DNA of 64,000 bases from Mesorhizobium sp. PAMC28654 (lineage in GTDB: Bacteria; Pseudomonadota; Alphaproteobacteria; Rhizobiales; Rhizobiaceae): assembly GCF_020616515.1 (NCBI RefSeq), contig NZ_CP085135.1:992001-1056000 (forward strand), written 5' to 3'. The position numbers and the translations under genes were made by a program. The notes beneath the pieces are model-generated. The model saw only the letters and a program-made list of their open reading frames with translations. It made no database searches and was not told where the DNA came from. This document shows, piece after piece, positions 33,658 through 62,282 of this stretch; position 1 is the first letter of the stretch, and every line of letters begins with the position of its first letter.

Positions 33658-33671
33658 TTGATCTGGCTCAA
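33658..33671. promoter_or_regulatory. FNR/FixK-type anaerobox upstream of the sqr operon
   Basis: TTGATCTGGCTCAA matches TTGA-N6-TCAA exactly. It lies 58 bases before the sulfide:quinone oxidoreductase start, a position suited to activation. The identical 14 bases recur at 53660-53673. Confidence 0.75.
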
Positions 33672-33739
33672 TTTCCCAAGGCGGGCGGCCCGATTGTAAG
33701 TCGTGCCGTTCGCAAGCCAGACCGATGGGCTTGCATTTA

Positions 33740-33774
33740 ACATTCAAAGATTATAAATTCAAGAGTATGAATGT
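33740..33774. promoter_or_regulatory. inverted repeat at the arsR-type gene start, possible operator
   Basis: ACATTCA (33740-33746) and TGAATGT (33768-33774) face each other across an AT-rich centre containing the ribosome-binding region and start codon of the regulator. ArsR-family repressors typically bind such AT-rich dyads. It lies between the divergent sqr and regulator genes. Confidence 0.5.
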
Positions 33775-34060
33775 AAGAGAGATGATCCCGGCTTCGGGAA
33801 AGGCAGCGGACCTGCTCAGGAGCCTATCCCATCCGCAACGGCTGCTGGTCCTTTGCGCGTTGGGGAAGGATGAGCGCTCGGTGGCGGAGCTGCGCGAACT
33901 GCTGGGTATTGACCAGGTGCCGATGTCGCAGCAACTCATGCGCTTGCGGGCTGACGGCCTGGTTGAATCGCGCCGCGATGGCACGACCGTCTACTACCGC
34001 ATCACCCGGCCAGAAGTCCTCACGGTTGTCGAAGCGCTTCATTCGGCTTTCTGTTCCTGA
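33767..34060 (+). CDS. ArsR/SmtB-family regulator, probably persulfide-responsive (SqrR/BigR type)
   Basis: This 97-residue winged-helix protein has the ArsR core (LLRSLSHPQRLLVLCALGKD, SVAELRELLGIDQVPMSQQL, DGTTVYYRITRPEVLTVVEA). Two cysteines, in LVLCAL and at the C-terminus AFCS, occupy the positions used by SqrR and BigR to form a tetrasulfide bridge with persulfides; metal-site motifs are not seen. Divergence from a sulfide:quinone oxidoreductase operon supports a sulfide-sensing repressor. The start at 33767 is the first Met in the family frame. Confidence 0.88.
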   Translation: MNVREMIPASGKAADLLRSLSHPQRLLVLCALGKDERSVAELRELLGIDQVPMSQQLMRLRADGLVESRRDGTTVYYRITRPEVLTVVEALHSAFCS

Positions 34061-34176
34061 CGAGAAGCGATGGCGACAACCCTCGCCGTCGCTCGCCTGG
34101 CCAAATTGAGCAGAAGGCTTCGAATATCTCAAAGGCGGCACAGGGCCGGATTCGCAGGAAACAGGAGAATTACAAT

Positions 34177-34505
34177 GTTTGGATTTGGAACGCGGTCGGC
34201 AGCCAGGACGCTGACCCCGACGCAAGTGCGCCAGAATGGGTGACGCCGTCACGCTTGTGGACGTCAGGGAGGACGGCGAGTGGGCGTCTGGGCATATAGC
34301 CGGCGCCGTCCATATTCCATTAAGCAGGCTTCGTGACGAGATGGACCGCATTCCATCCGGCAAACCCGTCGTGTTTTATTGCCACGCCGGCGGCCGGTCA
34401 TCGCAAGCGATAGCCATCGCCATGGCTGCGGGACAGGCGCACGACACGCATAAGGGCGGCGGCATCAGCGCCTGGCGTGCGCAAGGTTTCCCGTCGGCAA
34501 GCTGA
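34177..34505 (+). pseudogene. rhodanese-domain gene with an early frameshift
   Basis: The ATG at 34177, with AGGAGA upstream, reads MFGFGTRSAARTLTPTQVRQ and stops at once after a frame change near 34235. The other frame continues with VTLVDVREDGEWASGHIAGA, the active-site loop FYCHAGGRSS (catalytic Cys) and the C-terminal ISAWRAQGF. An ATG at 34236 could still give an 89-residue rhodanese, so the domain itself may be made. Rhodaneses move sulfane sulfur, fitting the sqr neighbourhood. Confidence 0.7.
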
Positions 34506-34735
34506 TAGCGACGGCGTTTTCGAATAAGAGGTCAAGTTGCGGCCCAGCGGAACAGAAAATGATCCTCGCGGTTGGGAGCATGTCCATGGACGTCGCGGCG
34601 GAAGGCACAACTGCCCCGGCCGGCGTCAGTCAACGAAGCCGCTCAATCCATGTGCACCGCACAACCTGGAGCGCCAAGCCGAAAGGTCACTGAGTTTGCC
34701 TTCAAAGCTGTCTTTTAAACGGGACCGACGGTGTG

Positions 34736-34766
34736 TTGACCTTCCATCTACCGGAAGGTCTACGTT
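34736..34766 (+). promoter_or_regulatory. MerR/CueR-type promoter with 19-bp spacer (first)
   Basis: A -35 TTGACC (34736-34741) and -10-like TACGTT (34761-34766) are separated by 19 bp, the over-long spacing of MerR-family promoters. The spacer carries the dyad ACCTTCC/GGAAGGT (34739-34759). It is similar to the site before cueR at 35293 and precedes the chimeric MerR-cupin frame. Confidence 0.65.
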
Positions 34767-60445: not shown

Positions 60446-61151
60446 TCTGCTCGCTCTCGAAGGCATTCGCAAATCGTACAATGTCGACACCCCGGTCGAG
60501 ACCGAAGTGCTGCACGGCATAGACGTCGCCATACGTCCGGGCGAGTTCGTGGCGCTGATGGGGCCATCCGGATCGGGCAAGAGCACGCTGCTCAACATCA
60601 TCGGCCTGCTCGATCGTCCCACTTCTGGCCGCCTGTCGATCAAGGGCGAGGACACGACGCAACTGTCCGAAGCGTCCTTGACCAGCCTGCGCGGCCACAC
60701 GATCGGCTTCGTATTCCAATACCACTATCTGATCTCCGCTTTCACCGCTCGCGAGAATGTCATGATGCCGATGCTGGTCGACCGTGGCCGGCCGGACGCC
60801 GCGATGGAACGGCGCGCCGACGAACTCCTGGATCGGGTCGATCTCGGCAAGCGGCGCAACAATCGGGCATTGAACATGTCCGGCGGCCAGCAACAACGCG
60901 TAGCCATCGCGCGCTCGCTGGCGATGGATCCGTCGCTTGTGCTGGCCGATGAGCCGACTGGCAATCTCGACACTGTCTCGGCGGATGCCGTCTTCGAACT
61001 GATGCGGCGCTTCAACACGGAACGTGGCACGACCTTCCTGATCGTCACGCACAATCATGATCTCGCGGGCCGTTGCGACCGTATCATCCAGGTCGTCGAC
61101 GGCAGGATTACCGAGGATCGTGCCAGTTCGGTTAAGCGCTGTCCGCGCTAG
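60438..61151 (+). CDS. MacB/LolD-type ABC transporter ATP-binding protein
   Basis: This 237-residue ATPase powers the preceding permease. Walker [11 protein letters not shown]-loop [20 protein letters not shown], signature [16 protein letters not shown] and Walker [12 protein letters not shown] are intact, and the His switch is in [10 protein letters not shown]. It belongs to the LolD/FtsE/MacB-N group. The start is the ATG at 60438, inside the permease gene end. Confidence 0.95.
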
Positions 61152-61250
61152 TGGGATACGCACGAATGCGCGGCGACTTACCGTCACAACCACGGACTAT
61201 CCCGAAGAGGCGACGACGCGCTGTCGGCTGCGAGTCGATGTATAGGAAGT

Positions 61251-61264
61251 TTGACGAGCATCAA
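61251..61264. promoter_or_regulatory. FNR/FixK-type anaerobox for the second universal stress protein
   Basis: TTGACGAGCATCAA matches TTGA-N6-TCAA and lies 52 bases before the ATG at 61317. Confidence 0.78.
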
Positions 61265-61316
61265 GGCGAAGATCAGGGTTCATTGCGATCCTGCCACCAC
61301 ACATGGAGGCACGAAA

Positions 61317-62138
61317 ATGATCTTCAACACCATCATGGTTCAGCTTGACGTCGATTCACCGGCGGCACCGCGAATGGCCTACGCCCGTGAATTGGCTCGG
61401 CGTTTTGAAGCGACACTGATCGGCTTTGCCGCGGCGGACGCATATGTGTTTGTTCCTGGCGACGATGGCGGCCTGGCAGCGGCCAAAATAATGCGGGAGC
61501 GCAGGGCGGAGATCGAAGACCGGCTGAAGGTCCTGAAGGAGGAGTTCCTGGGCATCGTCGGGTACGATGCGTCCTGGTGCGAGGAGGTCGGCGATCCGAC
61601 GCAGCTCCTTGCGACGCACGCCCGCGCCGCGGATCTCGTCGTGACCGGAGCGCCGGCCGCAGGAAGCGCCGGCGACCACCATCGCGTGCTCGATATCGGT
61701 ACATTGGTGCTGTCGGCGGGGCGACCGGTTCTGCTTGCCGCCGACAATCTCGTTCCGCCCAACCCCAAGAAGGTCCTGGTGGCGTGGAAGGACGCTCGCG
61801 AGGCGCGGCCGGCGATCGTTGATGCCATGCCTTTCTTGACGGGAGCTGAGGATGTGCTCCTGGCGACGGTCGAAGAGCAGAACCTGAGGACGGCGCGCGA
61901 AGGTCTCAGTGACGTTGTCCGCTTCCTGATGAGGCATGGCGTCAAGGCAAGGTCGGAAATCCTGCCCGCCGGCATTTCGGACGCCGGCGAAGTCGTCGCC
62001 GAACTGGCCCGTGCAATGGGCGCGGAGCTTGTGGTCGCGGGTGGCTACGGCCACAGCCGGATCCGTGAATGGGCCTTTGGCGGCATGACCCGCTCCCTTC
62101 TCAAGCAGGGGTCGGTCAATCGGCTGTTTTCGAACTGA
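61317..62138 (+). CDS. universal stress protein, tandem UspA domains
   Basis: This 273-residue protein has two UspA-like halves (MIFNTIMVQLDVDSPAAPRM onward; KKVLVAWKDAREARPAIVDA onward). The second ends with the ATP-binding pattern VVAGGYGHSRIREWAFGGMT. The first half lacks the G-2x-G-9x-G motif. It is a paralogue of the damaged gene at 50782 and intact. ATGGAGGC lies just upstream of the start. Its role is survival during energy or oxygen limitation. Confidence 0.93.
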   Translation: MIFNTIMVQLDVDSPAAPRMAYARELARRFEATLIGFAAADAYVFVPGDDGGLAAAKIMRERRAEIEDRLKVLKEEFLGIVGYDASWCEEVGDPTQLLATHARAADLVVTGAPAAGSAGDHHRVLDIGTLVLSAGRPVLLAADNLVPPNPKKVLVAWKDAREARPAIVDAMPFLTGAEDVLLATVEEQNLRTAREGLSDVVRFLMRHGVKARSEILPAGISDAGEVVAELARAMGAELVVAGGYGHSRIREWAFGGMTRSLLKQGSVNRLFSN

Positions 62139-62268
62139 CCTCTTTCGCAGAATGCAAGGCTTCCTCGCGGAAGCGGTGGCCCGTGGGACGCAGCGGCAGA
62201 TAGCTGGACCACTATGATCGAAATGTGGTCCTCGATGCGGACACCCGGCACGTCTAGCGGCCCCGTCC

Positions 62269-62282
62269 TTGACGCGCATCAA
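62269..62282. promoter_or_regulatory. FNR/FixK-type anaerobox for the kinase-like gene
   Basis: TTGACGCGCATCAA matches TTGA-N6-TCAA and lies 35 bases before the start at 62318, close enough that it may overlap the -35 region. Confidence 0.7.

Follow-up and report, generated by a model that had tools for sequence, protein, structure and literature searches.

Anaeroboxes and neighbouring genes in the window

The window analysed here, by which we mean a 64,000-nucleotide stretch covering positions 992001-1056000 of the single 6,701,426-base contig of Mesorhizobium sp. PAMC28654 (NZ_CP085135.1), contains a series of anaeroboxes, palindromes of the form TTGA-N6-TCAA associated with FixK and FNR regulators, lying close to low-oxygen and stress genes. 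Coordinates are those of the window unless given as genome coordinates. A sequence-only reading of this DNA had listed eleven exact palindromes, and every one is present where it was placed. Its estimate of about one by chance agrees with our shuffles (mean 0.84, maximum 4 among 100), and no exact box occurs in the first 33.6 kb, where it had noticed none in the first 33 kb. Nine of the eleven fit the stricter form TTGAY-N4-RTCAA, the exceptions being those at 33658 and 53660.

The first box (33658..33671) lies between two divergent units. On the minus strand, a gene for an SQR-like oxidoreductase (32307..33599; matched in Pfam, below the cut-off in NCBIfam) opens a run (27712-33599) that continues with a YgaP-like transmembrane protein, HlyD and AcrB-type RND genes, the box centre being 65 bases from the start used; on the plus strand is a frame for an ArsR-family regulator (33725-34060). 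The latter, which we take to resemble BigR/SqrR, is perhaps a sulfide-responsive repressor, and the operon may be dually controlled. The next two boxes share one intergenic region: that at 40486..40499 is centred 85 bases from a minus-strand gene for a protein with three BON stretches (39760..40407), followed by an alcohol dehydrogenase gene (38703-39755), and that at 40567..40580 is centred 71 bases from the start of arcD, the first gene of a plus-strand arcDABC arginine deiminase operon (40645..45300) encoding antiporter, deiminase, ornithine carbamoyltransferase and carbamate kinase.

Three plus-strand genes follow, each with its own box: one for a Host_attach/baeRF family 12 protein (47843..48358, start approximate; box 47817..47830, centre at 43 bases), groEL (48468..50114; box 48424..48437, at 37 bases), behind which lies a flavin reductase gene (50161-50691), and one for a universal stress protein (USP; 50795..51592; box 50702..50715, at 86 bases). 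A second gene for a protein with three BON stretches (52945..53592, minus strand) has its box at 53660..53673 (74 bases), and behind it lies a second Host_attach/baeRF12 gene (52389..52826, minus strand); both Host_attach/baeRF12 proteins are thus encoded under or near anaeroboxes. The box at 57018..57031 stands between ftsH (55075..56949, minus strand, 75 bases), which is followed by a gene for a PNPOx-like protein (54560-55078), and a plus-strand gene for a CBS-CBS-BON protein (57138..57845, 113 bases). A second USP gene (61317..62138, plus strand) has a box at 61251..61264 (59 bases), and the last box (62269..62282) lies 129 bases, centre to start, from an uncharacterised conserved gene (62405..63379, plus strand; frame open from 62318). 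The near-match reported at 57881 also exists; it reads TTGATCTGGCACAA (57881..57894) and stands before a HlyD-FtsX-ABC exporter run (57951-61151).

Genes were called with a home-made caller based on codon usage, so starts are approximate and short genes can be overlooked. With centres 37-129 bases from such starts, the earlier statement that each box lies 35-106 bases upstream of a start codon is roughly right, save that the box at 51905..51918 has no recognised gene directly downstream. The earlier gene names, among them alcohol dehydrogenase, arcDABC, GroEL and FtsH, were borne out by Pfam or NCBIfam, with the reservation already made for SQR; the exception is the protein called kinase-like (62318-63379), which matches no family of either database at E 0.001. 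No RNA family reached its gathering threshold in the window.

Density of boxes across the genome

The genome was scanned with exact patterns, both loose (TTGA-N6-TCAA) and strict (TTGAY-N4-RTCAA). Loose boxes number 93 in 6.70 Mb, compared with 16 for the reversed pattern, and 36 of the 93 fall within 915.9-1098.3 kb (genome), so that density differs sharply across the chromosome. In the core block (genome ~928-1098 kb), which measures 170.3 kb, 34 boxes give a density of 200 per Mb; the figure for the remaining genome is 8.7 per Mb (binomial P 1.6e-30). Two further boxes, at genome 915879 and 915903, are excluded from the 34 but included in the 36 and in the strict count. Strict boxes number 41 in the genome (control 6), 30 of them in 182 kb; the 11 elsewhere are little above the control. 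The 57 loose boxes outside the block exceed the reversed control of 16 and fall below the 13 per Mb expected from the window shuffles. None of the 36 block boxes has its centre inside a called gene.

The limits first proposed for the cluster, 33658..62282, prove too narrow: even with the pair at genome 915.9 kb set aside, boxes begin ~63.5 kb ahead of the window and continue for 42 kb beyond its end. The window covered about one third of the cluster. The central proposal, of an anaerobox cluster with low-oxygen and stress genes, stands: box density is far above background and, as described below, the boxes are conserved in relatives. Outside the window the block includes genes for Hsp20, a further USP, a P-type ATPase, cytochrome c, narGHJI, NnrS and a P450; a major facilitator superfamily (MFS) protein adjoining narGHJI is NarK-like by position only.

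Tests of box function

Spacing provides a first control. In the block N6 gives 36 boxes, compared with 0-4 for any other spacing from N0 to N14, and in 44 related loci (842 kb) it gives 300, compared with 1-23 for others; scrambled half-sites occur 0-2 times in the block and 0-11 times in the same 842 kb. For footprinting we took 23 block proteins with a box within 200 nucleotides and 194 related genes with 200 nucleotides of upstream DNA. The box is present upstream of 158 of these 194, compared with 0-1 for 11 scrambled half-sites and 0-2 for spacings N2-N11, although related promoters are not independent events and such counts overstate the number of separate proofs.

Gene by gene, conservation was scored in up to 250 nucleotides of upstream DNA, regions shorter than 150 being dropped (200 in the 194-gene set), as were alignments beginning after residue 25. 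The box is kept in 4/4 relatives for arcD, 3/4 for the first Host_attach/baeRF12 gene, 11/12 for groEL, 11/14 for ftsH, 9/12 for the CBS-BON gene and 12/14 for the conserved gene at 62405. It is likewise kept in 42/48 for the first BON gene and 42/48, largely the same set, for the second, and in 31/35 and 30/34 for the two USP genes, the BON and USP sets each overlapping through paralogues; the SQR set had no relative. Genes inside operons or without a box of their own here show little or none: arcA 0/6, HlyD 0/4 and the second Host_attach/baeRF12 gene only 2/11. An exact box replaces the near-match at 57881 in 0/4 relatives. Flavin reductase (5/11) and nitroreductase (1/1) were not counted as support.

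Promoter geometry gives a third line of evidence. The 158 promoters, reduced to 137 unique and then to 79 non-redundant sequences, were profiled for a -10-like element, scored on the T, A and T of the hexamer. The score peaks at the offset that implies a box centred at -41.5 (1.63, as against 0.46-1.05 elsewhere; n=79), and the 26 box-gene pairs of this genome itself have their maximum there too (1.46, the highest value at any other offset being 1.08). This spacing points to the class II position, centred near -41.5. A G stands two bases past the box in 82% of the 79 promoters, which agrees with the published consensus TTGANCNNGATCAANG (PMC4999443). Because the spacing, footprinting and promoter-geometry tests agree, the boxes look functional.

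Regulators encoded in the block

At least 12 matches to HTH_Crp_2 are present in the genome, six of them in the block; as 150 of 202 candidates were scored, a regulator may have been missed. The block matches comprise four full-length proteins and two fragments. A recognition helix with the motif E-[TS]-x-SR reads TTGA, and this motif is present in all four full-length proteins and in one fragment. Outside the block, the four matches that could be read, out of six, lack it, and L106 and L107 gave no alignment.

Two of the full-length proteins are FnrN-like. The gene for the first (genome 942199-943008, start uncertain) and hemN diverge from a shared region that contains a box, and the second lies at genome 1067354-1068169. 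Both have C-x2-C-x7-C plus a later cysteine, and comparison of the first with an FNR of solved structure aligns three of four candidate cluster cysteines (two N-terminal ones and the later one), the third N-terminal cysteine being offset by two residues. A FixK-like protein is encoded at genome ~1072.7-1073.4 kb, and a further, unassigned CRP/FNR-type regulator, with a box just upstream, by a frame at genome 1094617-1095381. The recognition helices read ETVSR or ETISR in FnrN and FixK, and ESFSR in the last protein. The block also carries fixL (genome 960620, below the NCBIfam cut-off) and fixJ (genome 962097, above it). The earlier proposal of one regulator encoded elsewhere is thus not supported: FixL, FixJ, a FixK-like protein and two proteins of FnrN type, both with candidate cysteines for a cluster, are all encoded in the block itself. 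Most of the clearest low-oxygen switches of this soil bacterium, a relative of the rhizobia that form nodules, and the proteins that probably read them, seem to be concentrated in one chromosomal block.

In rhizobia, FixL and FixJ act through FixK on the box, with FnrN as a second, direct oxygen sensor (PMC7888657, PMC5793154). From the genes present we infer that the same scheme holds in this genome.

Related genomes

The second BON protein has 44 related loci in the genome_contigs collection, 20 of them in Mesorhizobium; the closest ten loci for one BON protein are all from this genus, at 88-94% identity. A box upstream of the BON gene is also found in Rhizobium, Neorhizobium, Bosea, Methylocapsa, Phenylobacterium and others. 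Similar clusters are present in three Mesorhizobium genomes, G004 (35 boxes in 120 kb), G011 (18 in 80 kb) and G005 (12 in the 50 kb fetched), where spacings from N3 to N9 other than N6 give 0-2. G004 has fixL, fixJ, fixK, hemN, arcDABC, SQR-RND, GroEL, FtsH, USP and BON genes in common with our block, and G005 and G011 have parts of this set. Among the matches listed there are small groups in G003 (three strict boxes within 6 kb) and G009 (four within 19 kb), and G021 has 13 strict boxes (control 7). Across 61 Mesorhizobium genomes, this one included, strict boxes number 3-90 per genome, compared with 0-11 for the control; the lowest count, 3, belongs to a 3.3 Mb genome and the next lowest is 10.

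A probable low-oxygen regulon in one block

We consider it probable, at roughly 85%, that the block at genome ~928-1098 kb, rich in insertion sequences (ISs), is the main low-oxygen regulon of this strain, with class II boxes, its regulators encoded within it, and no full nifH. When oxygen falls, FixL and FixJ would act through FixK, and oxygen-labile FnrN-type proteins would act as well; FixK and FnrN-type proteins would bind the boxes at the class II position, centred at -41.5. The genes predicted to be switched on are those for arginine fermentation, nitrate respiration, sulfide oxidation and heme synthesis without oxygen, together with genes for protein and membrane upkeep (USP, BON, Hsp20, GroEL and FtsH), presumably to the benefit of the cell.

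Several observations weigh against this interpretation or narrow it. The FnrN, FixK and FixL matches fall under the NCBIfam equivalog cut-offs, and the box nearest the FixK-like gene lies more than 200 nucleotides upstream. The boxes recognised by FixK and FnrN are almost identical, so that either protein may read a given box. Nitrogen fixation persisted in FixJ and FixK mutants of M. loti R7A (PMC3538637), so that these regulators are not always essential. The box is missing upstream of 36 of the 194 relatives' genes, and the -10 signal is weak when scored as exact TAnnnT (13/79 at -41.5, 12/79 at -40.5 and at most 4 elsewhere; 2/26 for our own pairs). Downstream of the box at 51905 there is just a short open frame of ~70 codons. 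The two boxes at genome 915879-915916 are identical, with 24-base spacing, and sit in a tandem repeat where two convergent genes end; they are probably a repeat, not promoters. The loose boxes outside the block may include some real core sites. Finally, ccoN, the gene for subunit I of cbb3 oxidase, is matched in this genome only by a truncated copy (genome 943674-944168, L018) behind an intact anaerobox, closely followed by a frame that resembles ccoS by eye.

As the only ccoN match is truncated, the block appears partly decayed. The genome yielded no complete nifH, PF00142 giving three partial matches of ~32-45 residues, one of them over the cut-off; a symbiosis island was rejected on this ground, nif being judged from PF00142 only. 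The block thus resembles a partly decayed low-oxygen programme that lacks nitrogenase. The truncation of ccoN also means that the strain may have lost its high-affinity oxidase, and an oxidase-like gene is present at genome 931886-933508.

Origin of the block and alternative readings

As to how the block came together, we lean slightly towards stress genes having been gathered, by selection or by IS-driven rearrangement, around resident FixLJ, FixK and FnrN, without ever moving as a unit. G000, G004, G005 and G011 differ in gene order yet retain much of the gene set and the boxes, IS copies occur throughout the block, and the number of strict boxes is graded across the genus. What gathering alone leaves unexplained is a break in homology exactly at the 5' end of dusA.

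At that end, cobT, a protease-like gene and dusA stand in the same order in five of the seven other Mesorhizobium genomes compared, and homology with these stops at genome 916.90-916.94 kb, the dusA 5' end; in G005 the dusA part is inverted and homology stops at the same place. Beside it lies an integrase remnant (genome 917059-917694, 211 amino acids) that matches only the first part of the phrog_1 profile (E 4e-11) and has no Pfam match at E 0.001, with an IS pair behind it; in G009 a 47% identical stretch, in no frame of at least 150 amino acids, adjoins dusA. Between 917 kb and ~1.2 Mb IS copies are dense, and beyond that they are sparse; as all eight IS queries were taken from the block itself, this count is biased. 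Islands specific to dusA have been reported, among them one in M. opportunistum that carries genes for cytochrome biogenesis (PMC4482086). The cluster lies more than 1 Mb from cobT-dusA in G004, G005 and G011, so its position is not fixed in the genus.

These features would suit a mobile genomic island at dusA that moves as one unit with its boxes and regulators, an explanation we nonetheless regard as unlikely. In G016 homology ends before the dusA 5' end, at 915.88 kb, and rearrangement could account for the differing cluster positions. No second attachment repeat was found in 892-1136 kb, none was clear in 892-1616 kb, where seven 21-base matches with 4 mismatches were taken as noise, and BLAST found none in the rest of the genome. 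Nor was a right-hand junction recovered: the DNA that follows dusA in G021, G003, G004 and G011 was not found in 892-2016 kb (matches of at least 300 bases), and short matches to G005 and G016 (160-735 bases, 70-85%) are scattered at 1.24, 1.40 and 1.486-1.494 Mb. A tRNA-flanked island was rejected, no tRNA being found in the window or in 15 loci scanned. The earlier description of the island as horizontally movable thus has the integrase remnant, the synteny break at dusA and the many ISs in its favour and the missing second attachment site against it, and mobility is only suggested; the block may have grown next to a dusA-associated island. It is doubtful that nearly all functional anaeroboxes and their readers sit in one acquired block, a portable and self-wired regulon; if they did, a lineage could acquire or shed the entire low-oxygen programme in one piece, switches and genes together.

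There is a slim chance that some boxes are read mainly by a nitric oxide- or nitrate-responsive CRP/FNR protein in place of an oxygen sensor. The regulator at genome 1094617-1095381 lacks the candidate cluster cysteines and adjoins the MFS gene and narGHJI, with an NnrS gene a few kb on, but its ESFSR helix is unlike ETVSR/ETISR and most of the named targets are not nitrogen-oxide genes. Chance or base composition, which would suit only the loose boxes outside the block, at chance density by the shuffles, was ruled out as the origin of the block boxes by shuffles, spacing and half-site controls, as well as by promoter geometry, and its probability is negligible.

Comparison with known systems

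A low-oxygen regulon of this kind is not new in itself. Since related bacteria have similar clusters, we regard the block as a large example of a known arrangement and not as a new system. The fixNOPQ region of M. loti lies outside the symbiosis island and is switched on under low oxygen as well as in nodules (PMC5793154), and fixJ (mll6578) and fixK (mll6606) of that species have close gene numbers (PMC3538637). This region resembles our block in genus, in being chromosomal with fix genes and in its predicted response to low oxygen; in contrast, neither a full nifH nor an intact ccoN was found here. In S. meliloti, 97% of 122 FixJ-activated genes are on the symbiotic plasmid, and FixK targets include arginine metabolism, denitrification and stress (PMC5793154). 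The plasmid FixK/FnrN regulons of S. meliloti and of R. leguminosarum/johnstonii pRL9, where a locus with a BON gene has six boxes, involve the same box and the same regulator families; unlike them, the block is one chromosomal stretch in a genome without full nifH.

Similar protein classes also occur together in Burkholderia cenocepacia, a Betaproteobacterium. The accessory lxa locus of this species, whose products include six USPs, one BON protein and an alpha-crystallin, is turned on when oxygen is low and is required for anoxic persistence (PMC6127331, PMC9104464). The likeness is one of protein classes as given in those papers, whose available sections name no FixLJ or arc genes for lxa. 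For FnrN and FixK in Rhizobiales, one study lists redox and nitrogen genes, regulators and phbC as targets; the main text of that study contains neither USP nor arcA as terms, and 'bon' there belongs to four author names (PMC4999443). In the open-licence literature searched we found no description of the clustering itself.

The kind of system is already known, and the block is an unusually complete and measurable example of it. It offers a clear-cut instance in which most of a regulon forms a single physical block, within a genus whose strict-box number varies widely. That variation (3-90) makes the assembly of the regulon, and the joint inheritance of promoters and regulators, testable. Our data further suggest that a stress set of USP, BON, CBS, GroEL and FtsH proteins is linked to boxes of the FixK/FnrN type across many Rhizobiales, even where nitrogenase is lacking, parts of this set being already known from lxa.

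Further features

Two more CBS-BON genes, which are paralogues, lie outside the main cluster, at genome 1179168-1179887 (78% identity) and 676986-677714 (74%, with two in-frame stops). A few kb beyond the last box, at genome 1105599-1110705 (L023), are a gene that is UbiD-like by eye and a U32-peptidase gene, presumably comparable to UbiU/UbiV, which together raise the possibility of oxygen-independent ubiquinone synthesis. Within the window, the transposase genes at 20144-20710 and 46547-47113 are identical over their last 100 residues, and 24411-25762 is one copy of an IS pair with 8-9 copies in 892-1136 kb (genome). The MFS genes at 45.4-47.8 kb, which have a transposase between them, may be a single gene split by an IS.

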